Below are positions 1-30,723 of a DNA stretch of 64,000 bases, one piece after another. The DNA comes from Bacteroidota bacterium (GTDB taxonomy: Bacteria > Bacteroidota > Bacteroidia > Palsa-965). The stretch's first letter is position 1. The number at the start of each line of letters is the position of its first letter. The position numbers and the translations under genes were made by a program. The stretch lies in NCBI GenBank assembly GCA_006218065.1, contig VBWE01000007.1:62001-126000 (forward strand), written 5' to 3'. Below the pieces are notes generated by a model. The model worked only from the letters and a program-made list of their open reading frames with translations. It ran no database searches and had not been told where the DNA came from.

Positions 1-23
1 GGAATTGGCACCTTCTTTCATTA

Positions 24-123
24 TTCAAAGTTTAAGGTTTCATGTTTAATGTTCAATATTTGATGTTGCCAGGTTTTACCGCAGTCAACTCGAAACTTTG
101 AACATTAAACTTTAAACTTTGAA
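24..123. repeat. Imperfect inverted repeat, AT-rich TTTCATGTTTAA type
   Basis: Two arms, about 24-60 and 90-123, are imperfect reverse complements built from the words TTCAAAGTTTAA and AATGTTCAAA. A related inverted repeat made of the same words lies at 32523-32616, so this looks like a dispersed intergenic family. The rest of 1-247 holds no gene that I can support; it is the 3-prime flank of the minus-strand gene ending at 248. Confidence 0.6.
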
Positions 124-247
124 TAAATCCAGGGTTGCCAAGGTTTCATCGGGCGCAGTCCCTCCACCTTTCTGGATAAGCATTTTAAAGAACAGGTACA
201 AAAGTAATGATTTGGAAAACAACCGGCAAAAACGGGCCCGGCCGGGT

Positions 248-27534: not shown

Positions 27535-27652
27535 CAAGGAACGCACAATGCCAAACGTTCAATTATCAATGAACATTGAACAAATTCATTGGTAATTGAG
27601 CGTTGTGCGTTTGGCGTTGTGCGTTTTTATTTCACTGCTCTGATGGTATAAA
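27535..27652. repeat. Dispersed inverted repeat, copy A
   Basis: Begins CAAGGAACGCACAATG, has an 18-bp arm (27540-27557 region) matched with one mismatch by its reverse complement near 27600-27625, and ends with a conserved tail around TATTTCACTG. Copy B with the same start, arms and tail is at 43659-43776. The copies differ in the middle. No ORF. Confidence 0.75.
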
Positions 27653-27674: not shown

Positions 27675-27707
27675 TTTGTTTCTTCCCCGGGAATTGCTTT
27701 ACCTTTG
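27675..27707 (+). promoter_or_regulatory. Promoter of the cys leader-cysCDN transcript
   Basis: TTTG at 27675-27678, 21-bp spacer, TACCTTTG at 27700-27707, a full TAnnTTTG match. Predicted start near 27711, a few bases before the leader ORF. Confidence 0.65.
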
Positions 27708-27714
27708 CCCCGCA

Positions 27715-27792
27715 ATGATCATCCATCGTTTCCGTCAAGTAATGAAAGCCTGCTGCTGCATGATGTGCTGCTGCATGAAGCCTTTCGCCTGA
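27715..27792 (+). CDS. Cysteine-rich leader peptide upstream of cysC
   Basis: A 25-codon ORF with six TGC codons in two triplets separated by two ATG codons; from the internal ATG at 27742 it reads MKACCCMMCCCMKPFA. Cys codons are at 27751-27759 and 27766-27774, Met codons at 27742, 27760, 27763 and 27775. The stop codon TGA (27790-27792) directly precedes the first strand of an antiterminator. This is the classic form of an amino-acid attenuator leader: ribosomes stall on Cys codons when charged tRNA-Cys is scarce. Whether translation begins at 27715 (nearly leaderless) or 27742 is open. No function is expected for the peptide beyond its translation. Confidence 0.75.
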   Translation: MIIHRFRQVMKACCCMMCCCMKPFA

Positions 27793-27834
27793 ACGGAGAG
27801 ACGAAATCCTATATTTCAAAAAGGGTCTTTCCGT
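27793..27834 (+). promoter_or_regulatory. Antiterminator helix of the cysteine attenuator
   Basis: 27793-27802 (ACGGAGAGAC) pairs with 27825-27834 (GTCTTTCCGT) over 10 bp with one G-U pair. The second strand includes the left arm of the terminator, so the two folds exclude each other. A ribosome paused on any leader Cys codon leaves the first strand free; one at the leader stop codon covers it. Confidence 0.65.
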
Positions 27835-27859
27835 AACCGGTAAGACCCTTTTTTGTTTT
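27818..27859 (+). terminator. Intrinsic terminator (attenuator) before cysC
   Basis: Stem 27818-27829 with 27842-27853 (12 bp), extended past one mismatch by a 3-bp CCG/CGG top with a TAAC loop, followed by a T-rich tract to 27859. It ends 13 bases before the cysC ATG, and after the leader ORF, so it would block cysCDN transcription unless antiterminated. Confidence 0.85.
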
Positions 27860-27872
27860 GTAAACGATACGT

Positions 27873-28475
27873 ATGAGCGACGATAAAAACATTCACCCGG
27901 TATTCAACCGGCTCCTGCAGCGCAGCGACAAGGAAAAGCTGCTGAAGCAGCGCGCGCGCGTGATCTGGCTCACCGGGCTTTCCGGTTCGGGCAAAACCAC
28001 GCTGGCCATCGCGCTCGAGCGGGAACTGCACAACCGGGGTTTTCTCACGCAGGTGCTCGATGGGGATAATATCCGCGCGGGAATCAACAACAATCTCGGT
28101 TTCAGCGAAGAAGACCGTACCGAAAACATCCGCCGGATTGCCGAAGTATCCAAACTTTTCCTGGATGCGGGCATCATTACCATCAATTGTTTTGTAAGCC
28201 CGGCGCGTGCGATGCGCGAGTTAGCGCGTAACATCATCGGCGCCGGCGATTTCATCGAAATTTACATCAACGCTTCGCTCGAAACCTGCGAACAGCGCGA
28301 TGTGAAAGGCCTTTATGCCAAAGCGCGAAAAGGAGAAATTAAAGATTTTACTGGGATCCACACACCTTTCGAAGCGCCGGAAAATCCTGCCGCAGAAATT
28401 CTGACCGACCGGCAAAGCATTGAAGAAAGCGCACAAATCCTGATTCAAACCATCGAACCGCTGATCCGACCATGA
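27873..28475 (+). CDS. cysC: Adenylylsulfate (APS) kinase
   Basis: A 200-residue kinase that phosphorylates APS to PAPS in sulfate activation. P-loop GLSGSGKTTLA near residues 35-45, substrate region LDGDNIRAGINNNLGFSEEDRTEN (DGDN quoted as key), and the lid segment FVSPARAMRELARNIIG. Normal length. First structural gene after the attenuator; its stop overlaps the cysD start (ATGA at 28472), so translation is coupled. PAPS can feed sulfate reduction or sulfation of surface glycans. Confidence 0.95.
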   Translation: MSDDKNIHPVFNRLLQRSDKEKLLKQRARVIWLTGLSGSGKTTLAIALERELHNRGFLTQVLDGDNIRAGINNNLGFSEEDRTENIRRIAEVSKLFLDAGIITINCFVSPARAMRELARNIIGAGDFIEIYINASLETCEQRDVKGLYAKARKGEIKDFTGIHTPFEAPENPAAEILTDRQSIEESAQILIQTIEPLIRP

Positions 28476-29380
28476 ATACACACAGCCTGAAACACCTGCA
28501 GGAACTTGAAGCCGAATCCATTTTCGTTTTGCGCGAGCTGGCCGCACAATTTGAACGCCCGGCTTTGCTTTTTTCCGGCGGAAAGGATTCGATCGTGGTG
28601 AGTCACCTCGCCCGCAAAGCTTTCCATCCCGCGAAAATTCCGTTCCCGCTGCTGCATATCGATACCGGGCATAATTTCCCGGAAACACTCGGGTACCGCG
28701 ACTGGTGGGTGAACGAAGTGCTCGGCGCAAAACTGCTGGTCCGTTCGGTGCAGGATACCATCGACCAGGGCCGCGTTACGGAAGAAAAAGGGATCAACTC
28801 GAGCCGTAACGTTTTACAAACCACCACGCTGCTCGATGCGATCGAAGAACTGAAACTCGACTGCGCAATAGGCGGTGCGCGGCGCGACGAAGAAAAAGCA
28901 AGAGCGAAAGAACGGTTCTTCTCGCACCGCGACGATTTCGGCCAGTGGGATCCGAAAAACCAGCGCCCGGAACTGTGGAATATTTTCAACGGCCGGAAAA
29001 ATATGGGAGAACATTTCCGCGTATTCCCGATCAGCAACTGGACCGAGATGGATGTATGGCAATACATCCTGCATGAAAATATACCGCTTCCGAAAATTTA
29101 TTTCTCACATAAACGCCTGGTGATCGAGCGCGACGGCGTACTCCTGTACAAGTCGGAATTCCTGGTCACCAAACCGAATGAAATCGCGGAAGAACGCATC
29201 ATCCGTTTCCGCACCATCGGCGACATGACCTGTACCGGTGCGGTGGAATCCACGGCATCCACGCTGGAAGAAATCATCCGCGAAGTAGCCGCCTCCCGCA
29301 CCACCGAACGCGGCACCCGCGCCGACGACAAACGCTCGGACGCAGCCATGGAAGACCGGAAAAAAGCGGGGTATTTTTAG
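28472..29380 (+). CDS. cysD: Sulfate adenylyltransferase subunit 2 (ATP sulfurylase small subunit)
   Basis: A 302-residue PP-loop ATP pyrophosphatase-fold enzyme that adenylates sulfate to APS. PP-loop LLFSGGKDSIVV near residues 30-41, then HIDTGHNFPETL, GGARRDEEKARAKER and the C-terminal ERGTRADDKRSDAAMEDRKK tail, all typical of CysD. It works as a heterodimer with the GTPase CysN encoded next. A 77-bp gap with a palindromic repeat separates it from cysN. Confidence 0.96.
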   Translation: MNTHSLKHLQELEAESIFVLRELAAQFERPALLFSGGKDSIVVSHLARKAFHPAKIPFPLLHIDTGHNFPETLGYRDWWVNEVLGAKLLVRSVQDTIDQGRVTEEKGINSSRNVLQTTTLLDAIEELKLDCAIGGARRDEEKARAKERFFSHRDDFGQWDPKNQRPELWNIFNGRKNMGEHFRVFPISNWTEMDVWQYILHENIPLPKIYFSHKRLVIERDGVLLYKSEFLVTKPNEIAEERIIRFRTIGDMTCTGAVESTASTLEEIIREVAASRTTERGTRADDKRSDAAMEDRKKAGYF

Positions 29381-29420: not shown

Positions 29421-29441
29421 GGGCGATGCAATGCATCGCCC
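29421..29441. repeat. Short perfect palindrome GGGCGATGCA-A-TGCATCGCCC
   Basis: Ten-bp arms around a single A, in the cysD-cysN gap. A second partial word GGGCGATGC lies at about 29393. The sequence resembles a GGGCGATGCA repeat scattered in many genomes. It could fold in the mRNA between the two subunit genes. Confidence 0.6.
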
Positions 29442-29457
29442 CAGTGAACCTGATACT

Positions 29458-30723
29458 ATGGAAAACGCAACCTACCTGGACATGGAACTGCTCCGCTTCA
29501 CCACAGCCGGAAGCGTGGACGACGGGAAAAGCACGCTGATCGGGCGGCTGCTGTACGATACGAAATCCATTTTCGAGGACCAGTACGAAGCCATCAAAGC
29601 AACCAGCGACAAACGCGGCGAGGAATACGTAAATCTCGCACTGCTTACCGACGGATTGCGCGCAGAACGCGAGCAGGGCATCACGATCGACGTGGCTTAC
29701 CGGTATTTCGCTACGCCGAAACGGAAATTCATCATCGCCGATACGCCGGGACATATCCAGTACACGCGCAACATGGTCACCGGGGCGTCAACAGCCAATC
29801 TCGCCATTATCCTGATCGACGCGCGCAAAGGCGTGATCGAACAAACCATGCGACACGCATACATCGCTTCGCTGCTGCGTATTCCGCACCTCGCGGTCTG
29901 CATCAACAAAATGGACCTGGTGGATTATAACCGGGAAACCTTCGAATCGATCCGCAAAACGTTCAGCGATTTCGCCACCAAACTCGATATCGTGGACGTG
30001 CATTTCATCCCAATCAGCGCGCTCAAAGGCGACAACGTGGTTGACCGCAGCGCAAATACATCCTGGTACGACGGGCCTACCCTGCTCCACCTGCTCGAAA
30101 ATATCCACATCGCCAGCGACAACAATATGGTGGACGCGCGGTTCCCGGTACAATACGTCATCCGCCCGATGAGCACGGAACACCATGACTATCGCGGCTT
30201 TGCCGGGCGTATGGCCGGAGGCATTTTCAAAAAAGGAGATCAAGTGACCGTACTGCCTTCCGGATTTTCTTCTTCCATTAAATCCATCGACGTGTATGAA
30301 GGTGAACTGGAAGAAACATTCACGCCGCAATCCGTTACGATCACGCTGAACGACGAGATCGACATCAGCCGCGGCGATATGATCGTGAAAGAAGATAACC
30401 AGCCGCAGGTTTCACAGGATATCGACGTGATGCTCTGCTGGATGAACGAAAAAAAATTAATCCCCGGCGGAAAATATGCGCTCAAACATACCAGCAAAGA
30501 TGTCCGCTGCATCGTGAAAGACGTGCTGCATAAAGTGAACATCAATACGCTGGAAGATATTACGGACGATAAAACCATCGGGCTGAACGATATTTTCAGG
30601 GCGCGCCTGCGGACTACGGCTCCCCTGTTTTTCGATTCATATAAAAGCAACCGCGTAACCGGCTCGCTCATCCTGGTTGATGAAGGAACGAATGAAACCG
30701 TAGCCGCCGGCATGATCGTATGA
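29458..30723 (+). CDS. cysN: Sulfate adenylyltransferase subunit 1 (GTPase)
   Basis: A 421-residue EF-Tu-like GTPase that drives CysD-catalysed APS formation. ATG at 29458 (MENATYLDMELLRFTTAGSV) preferred to an in-frame codon at 29431 inside the palindrome. G1 GSVDDGKSTLIGRL, G2/G3 GITIDVAYRYF and IADTPGHIQYTRNM, G4 INKMDLVDYN, then beta-barrel domains from about 230. It has no C-terminal APS kinase fusion, consistent with a separate cysC. Its stop overlaps the acetyltransferase start (ATGA). Confidence 0.96.
   Translation: MENATYLDMELLRFTTAGSVDDGKSTLIGRLLYDTKSIFEDQYEAIKATSDKRGEEYVNLALLTDGLRAEREQGITIDVAYRYFATPKRKFIIADTPGHIQYTRNMVTGASTANLAIILIDARKGVIEQTMRHAYIASLLRIPHLAVCINKMDLVDYNRETFESIRKTFSDFATKLDIVDVHFIPISALKGDNVVDRSANTSWYDGPTLLHLLENIHIASDNNMVDARFPVQYVIRPMSTEHHDYRGFAGRMAGGIFKKGDQVTVLPSGFSSSIKSIDVYEGELEETFTPQSVTITLNDEIDISRGDMIVKEDNQPQVSQDIDVMLCWMNEKKLIPGGKYALKHTSKDVRCIVKDVLHKVNINTLEDITDDKTIGLNDIFRARLRTTAPLFFDSYKSNRVTGSLILVDEGTNETVAAGMIV

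Follow-up and report, generated by a model that had tools for sequence, protein, structure and literature searches.

A putative cysteine-codon transcription attenuator upstream of cysCDN in a Bacteroidota genome, with related leaders at other sulfur genes

The region immediately upstream of cysCDN in the window (the whole 64-kb stretch of DNA analysed here) raises the question of whether these sulfate-assimilation genes are controlled by a ribosome translating cysteine codons in a short leader. A first-pass annotation, made from the sequence alone, had described a promoter, a short ORF, its stop codon, a 10 bp antiterminator and an exclusive terminator ahead of cysC, and had interpreted them as a ribosome-mediated cysteine attenuator. 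The parts held base for base, and the interpretation is supported by comparison of relatives, with the response to cysteine inferred. The genes downstream, on the forward strand like the leader, were assigned using NCBIfam and Pfam. They are cysC (27873–28475; TIGR00455, PF01583), encoding adenylyl-sulfate kinase and the first gene under the proposed control; cysD (28472–29380; TIGR02039), encoding the small subunit of sulfate adenylyltransferase and overlapping cysC by 4 nt; and cysN (29431–30723; TIGR02034), encoding the large subunit.

The promoter (27675–27707) is of the Bacteroidota type, with TTTG at 27675–27678 and the TAnnTTTG box TACCTTTG at 27700–27707. A TAnnTT(T/C)G box is present upstream of 35 of the 37 leader ORFs scanned. 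The leader ORF (27715–27792) comprises 25 codons, from an ATG at 27715 to a TGA at 27790–27792, and encodes the peptide MIIHRFRQVMKACCCMMCCCMKPFA. Only 7 nt separate its ATG from the TAnnTTTG box, a gap that is larger in other leaders; a leaderless start is thus a possibility inferred from the promoter position. Six Cys codons, at 27751–27759 and 27766–27774, fall within nine codons, with three internal Met codons among or beside them and one more Met further upstream. A long imperfect hairpin of about −49 kcal/mol (27537–27628) is located just 5' of the promoter; it may be a terminator acting in both directions, or else a mobile palindromic repeat.

Immediately 3' of the stop codon is region 2 (27793–27802, ACGGAGAGAC), the 5' strand of the antiterminator, which pairs over 10 bp, one G-U included, with region 3 (27825–27834, GTCTTTCCGT). 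The bases of region 3 also belong to an intrinsic terminator (27818–27859), where they contribute to its 5' arm and to the loop side; the terminator stem spans 27818–27853 and is followed by a T-rich tail to 27859. Terminator and antiterminator are mutually exclusive because both use 27825–27834. In the ribosome-free fold the post-stop strand is taken up by pairing with 27725–27735, near the beginning of the ORF, so that termination is the default state. This possible region 1, which would form a 1:2 protector stem, is tentative; the pairing folds in the window, and by-eye inspection found it in only some relatives.

The first-pass annotation had proposed folding the RNA in both states. The folding energies for the window leader are −19.4 kcal/mol for the terminator and −13.7 kcal/mol for the antiterminator. 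The terminator helix is thus the stronger at equilibrium, and antitermination must therefore be kinetic, winning by forming first. The positions available to a ribosome fit this scheme. With the footprint edge set at 12 nt beyond the A-site, a stall at any of the six Cys codons leaves 27793–27802 uncovered, while a ribosome at the stop codon masks exactly these ten bases. All 35 leaders included in the count have one or more Cys codons at which a stalled ribosome leaves the antiterminator strand free, and in 34 of them a ribosome at the stop codon masks at least 3 nt of that strand. The count omits one weak cysC leader (G008) and the peroxiredoxin leaders of G001 and G003, in which the terminator finder picked the wrong hairpins.

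The sequence parts, their conservation, covariation and geometry are shown. The cysCDN leader is likely to be a transcription attenuator that works through a translating ribosome and senses charged tRNA-Cys, and perhaps also tRNA-Met, with stalling, kinetics, the cysteine response and methionine as a second input all inferred in the absence of expression data. RNA polymerase would make a short leader, the ORF of which is translated. When Cys-tRNA is plentiful, the ribosome would reach the stop codon and cover 27793–27802, the terminator at 27818–27859 would form and cysCDN would be off. When Cys-tRNA is scarce, the ribosome would stall on one of the six Cys codons, and the exposed 27793–27802 strand would capture 27825–27834 before the 3' arm of the terminator is made, allowing polymerase to continue into cysC, cysD and cysN. 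Without translation, termination would occur by default. The sulfate-assimilation enzymes would then probably be made only when charged cysteine tRNA is short, a response that is likely in vivo but inferred without RNA data. The same logic probably also applies in this genome to sulfite reductase, which has two attenuators in series, and to korAB.

The Cys run exceeds what chance would give. None of 5000 dinucleotide shuffles of the leader gave six Cys codons in nine within an ATG-to-stop ORF, and the window leader is the sole short ORF with at least four Cys codons in nine on either strand of the 64-kb window. The 151-nt leader RNA has a folding z of −3.7. No Rfam riboswitch, T-box or leader family matched the window leader at the gathering score, only sub-threshold chance matches being seen, and a riboswitch or T-box was accordingly rejected. 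At the edge of the window, a SAM riboswitch (RF00162, 47.3 bits; 1–182, minus strand), truncated by the window boundary, precedes a class I methyltransferase-like ORF on the same strand (L224:3637–4392).

cysC is present in 102 of 197 related genomes. Among the cysC loci read, the leader is found upstream in seven genomes of the window's family, f1 (G000, which is the window's genome, G001, G002, G004, G005, G008 and G010), as well as in family f21 and in two f44 genomes, making three families in total. Three further f1 genomes (G006, G009 and G011) carry cysC without a recognisable leader, and in many other families deoC and cysC lie back to back with no leader between them. The leader is therefore a real but patchy feature, not a universal one. 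The nearest relatives are in Bacteroidota. A Cys/Met run near the C terminus of the peptide is kept in relatives, with about three internal Met codons per leader and both Cys codons in use (80 TGC, 69 TGT). In G008 the antiterminator of the cysC leader is weak. In another cysC leader (L082; G390:C4:128307–128416) the stems are intact and the ORF has lost most of its Cys codons (MVYCMIRYF), which we read as a decayed sensor with a retained terminator. The first-pass annotation would have been refuted had Cys codons and stems not been conserved in relatives; this was checked and was not the case. Compensatory stem changes, which it had suggested looking for, were found, and the geometry of stall, stop codon and antiterminator holds in all leaders tested but one.

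For the terminator, covariation was scored on an alignment of 32 leaders fitted to the covariance model; a MAFFT alignment was not used, as its 3' arm was misregistered. Changes on both sides occur in 12 of 13 pairs. There are 51 doubly changed cells, compared with 3–13 after partners have been displaced by one to three columns, and no shuffle of 500 reaches this result. The result is favoured by the alignment having been fitted to that structure. For the antiterminator, each leader was allowed its register of best complementarity. The mean score was 19.9, against 12.0 for shuffled post-stop sequence (0/200 sets as high) and 17.5 when terminator arms were swapped between leaders (0/2000 permutations as high); the tests include the weak G008 leader and the G001 and G003 peroxiredoxin leaders with wrong hairpins, which lower the mean. 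On fixed columns, 87.8% of antiterminator cells pair, above every slid version, but the column counts are weak against column shuffles, and 12 of 32 rows are unpaired at columns 60–127. At column 127, a U in the terminator arm is often opposite a post-stop A, and a G often opposite a C; two leaders of the G001/G005 type have C in the arm with the A kept in the strand, giving a mismatch. Support for the antiterminator thus comes from the per-sequence registers rather than fixed-column counts, on which it is weaker. None of the covariation and pairing tests was corrected for relatedness.

Are such leaders confined to cysC? When 395 genomes of the class were searched with a covariance model built from the cysC leaders, further Cys-rich leaders were matched upstream of a ferredoxin-type sulfite/nitrite reductase, of a tauE-like gene with cysH, of homoserine dehydrogenase (hom) and of korAB (2-oxoacid:ferredoxin oxidoreductase). 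The reductase is named by homology, and its preference for sulfite over nitrite is inferred; the targets are mostly sulfur genes. The korAB leader of the window's genome (L101; G000:C40:134094–134208) encodes MCCCMMCAVNSGRD and is Cys-rich, with a terminator ahead of korAB; L109, L110, L113 and L115 have the same arrangement. The evidence for an antiterminator is weaker in the korAB leaders. Cys codons outnumber Met codons in the cysCDN and korAB leaders. Matches without a Cys ORF (among them L091, L094, L095, L097, L098, L111, L112, L114, L117 and L118) were set aside as plain terminators or unrelated sequences. The first-pass annotation contained none of this wider set (sulfite reductase, cysH, korAB and the looser Met relatives), nor the serial pairs, the linked tRNA-Cys or the Met codons beside Cys.

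A second model, built after removal of reverse-strand and terminator-only matches, was run over the phylum. It found looser, Met-richer leaders upstream of metY-like genes in several families and of a metN-like gene. These genes, together with tauE and trpE, were named by eye from sequence. Met/Cys leader ORFs with terminators precede O-acetylhomoserine sulfhydrylase-like metY genes at six loci (L205, L206, L208, L210, L211 and L214); several of these ORFs end in Lys-Gly or similar codons, which constitute the antiterminator strand. The metY-type antiterminators sit inside the ORF; of six, five score above shuffled sequence. The leader MRNNSLNMKNYYNCGTMMCCNTVM precedes a metN-like ABC transporter gene (L209; G557:C1:4944071–4944181), and a Trp-codon attenuator of the same layout, with the peptide MINTQNIWWWNSLKR, precedes a trpE-like gene (L213; G142:C1:285423–285532). 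The Cys:Met ratio is 159:116 in leaders of cysteine-pathway genes and 21:33 before metY, metN and hom (Fisher p = 0.011). Matches to this model that lacked a Cys ORF, such as L207, L212 and L217, were set aside as plain terminators or unrelated sequences.

At sulfite reductase the attenuators are doubled. In the window's genome (G000:C78:235100–235850; L121 and L122), two Cys leaders lie in series upstream of the gene, each with its own terminator. Twelve sulfite-reductase leaders, drawn from five families, had enough sequence downstream to be judged, and all of them carry two non-identical Cys attenuators in series. The first resembles the cysC leader. The antiterminator strand of the second is usually GCGGAAG; it is located within the ORF, three to several codons past the Cys run, and its partner in the terminator is CTTCCGC. 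Both sides have changed in G136 (CGGGAGG/CCTCCCG) and in G000 (TCCGGAA/TTCCGGA). As a set the second antiterminators score above shuffled sequence (0/300), whereas swapping partners gave a borderline result (248/5000) because their sequences are alike.

In G000 the T-run of the second terminator is immediately followed by a tRNA-Cys(GCA) gene. In G001 and G007 the tRNA-Cys gene is flanked by a peroxiredoxin gene and sulfite reductase, and in all these cases the genes share one strand. In G001, G003 and G007 the attenuators are followed by peroxiredoxin. BLAST of G000 revealed no other full-length copy of tRNA-Cys, without an anticodon census of all tRNAs, and no TAnnTTTG box was seen between the second ORF and tRNA-Cys. 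It is possible, as an inference, that tRNA-Cys is transcribed only by read-through, which would place the gene for the sensed molecule behind the gate. In a separate genome (L102; G199:C10), the second terminator is followed by a sequence that resembles tRNA-Cys but has a palindrome inserted in the T arm; it was not called by ARAGORN and is possibly a broken tRNA gene.

Other explanations of the leader can be weighed against the attenuator. The nascent Cys/Met-rich peptide might itself sense a metal such as copper, or redox state, and stall or release the ribosome, as has been proposed for upstream ORFs that respond to copper. The RNA switch would be the same, with a signal other than tRNA charging. 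Met and Cys are Cu(I) ligands, the motif MMCCMMC recurs, and the peroxiredoxin genes noted above are suggestive of redox. However, only the density of Cys and Met is common to the leaders, with no fixed arrangement (CCCMMCCC, MCCCMC, MACMCCKFCTCGDCF, NCCWMCM), and the targets are genes of sulfate assimilation and sulfite reduction, with no metal-export gene seen. Met-richer leaders occur at Met genes and a Trp leader at trpE in the same layout; since the codon mix follows the pathway, amino-acid sensing is favoured over metal sensing, and the peptide sensor is considered very unlikely.

Methionine, or translation status in general, could alternatively be the main signal, through stalls at internal AUG codons or poor initiation. 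The recurrent internal Met codons and the Met-richer leaders before metY, metN and hom are in keeping with this. Nevertheless, Cys exceeds Met in the cysCDN and korAB leaders, Cys stalls fall at the right distance and these genes make cysteine, so this too has very little probability. The remaining possibility, an ordinary terminator beside a chance Cys-rich ORF with no regulation, draws on the fact that intrinsic terminators are common and that the covariance model also matches plain terminators elsewhere. It is all but ruled out by the shuffles (0/5000), by conservation across families and loci and by covariation in the terminator; moreover, the placement of the promoter makes the terminator act on the leader transcript. 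Attenuation by charged tRNA-Cys remains the preferred reading.

Taken alone, the cysCDN locus would add one more attenuator to a known type. What is new is the serial pair, the mixture of Cys and Met, the spread of the regulon and the link to tRNA-Cys. The attenuator interpretation is well supported in anatomy and evolution, and the function is inferred. A bolder joint reading can be proposed, to which we give slightly less than an even chance. Under it, parts of the Bacteroidota would run a whole sulfur-amino-acid regulon by attenuation. The codon mix of the Cys/Met leaders would grade between cysteine genes and methionine genes, and sulfite reductase would stand behind two non-identical serial Cys attenuators. 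In some species tRNA-Cys would depend on this double gate for all its expression, and 2-oxoacid:ferredoxin oxidoreductase would be tied in, perhaps to supply reduced ferredoxin to sulfite reduction. If true, the Bacteroidota would have a cysteine-control system, of which no description was found in the open-access literature searched, that rests on an RNA switch among the oldest known. With two terminations multiplied, the serial pair would keep expression very tightly off. The tRNA-Cys gene located after it would return the sensed molecule to the circuit, and the korAB leader would tie a central-carbon enzyme to cysteine supply. These predictions are directly testable with reporters in tractable Bacteroidota.

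The first-pass annotation knew of no described case in Bacteroidota. This is consistent with the open-access literature searched, supplements excluded, in which no description of a cysteine attenuator in this phylum was found; what transcriptome papers on Flavobacterium psychrophilum and Bacteroides thetaiotaomicron say about 5' regions resembling leader peptides is general and does not refer to cysteine. Like the trp, his and leu attenuators of Proteobacteria, the leaders described here have a short ORF rich in codons for the pathway amino acid, exclusive antiterminator and terminator, and stop-codon geometry. They differ in their Cys (and Met) codons, in their occurrence in Bacteroidota, in the serial pairs at sulfite reductase and in a 1:2 stem that is not clearly conserved. 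Cys-codon leaders have been predicted before cys operons of Actinobacteria, in mycobacteria without conserved terminator hairpins (PMC1262725), and mycobacterial polycysteine leaderless short ORFs are cysteine-responsive (Canestrari 2020, doi 10.1111/mmi.14498, via PMC9031893 and PMC9094748). These share a Cys run near the stop codon of a short ORF that precedes cys genes and lies, in the window by inference only, at the very 5' end of a transcript, whereas the Bacteroidota leaders, from a different phylum, have a conserved terminator and antiterminator. By inference the window leader works like the mycobacterial leaders, but it is not a member of that group, as its conserved terminator shows. 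uORFC-8-2 of Rhodobacterales is likewise a predicted Cys-codon attenuator with a U-run terminator, but has two tandem Cys codons and is found exclusively upstream of cysS (PMC8632094). The present leaders precede sulfate and sulfite genes (cysCDN, not cysS, in the window), have more Cys codons together with Met codons, and include tandem devices. Tandem attenuators with two short ORFs in one leader are known from Salmonella mgtCBR (PMC3641672). That leader responds to other signals. In the Bacteroidota pairs, by comparison, both ORFs are Cys-rich and each has a terminator of its own.
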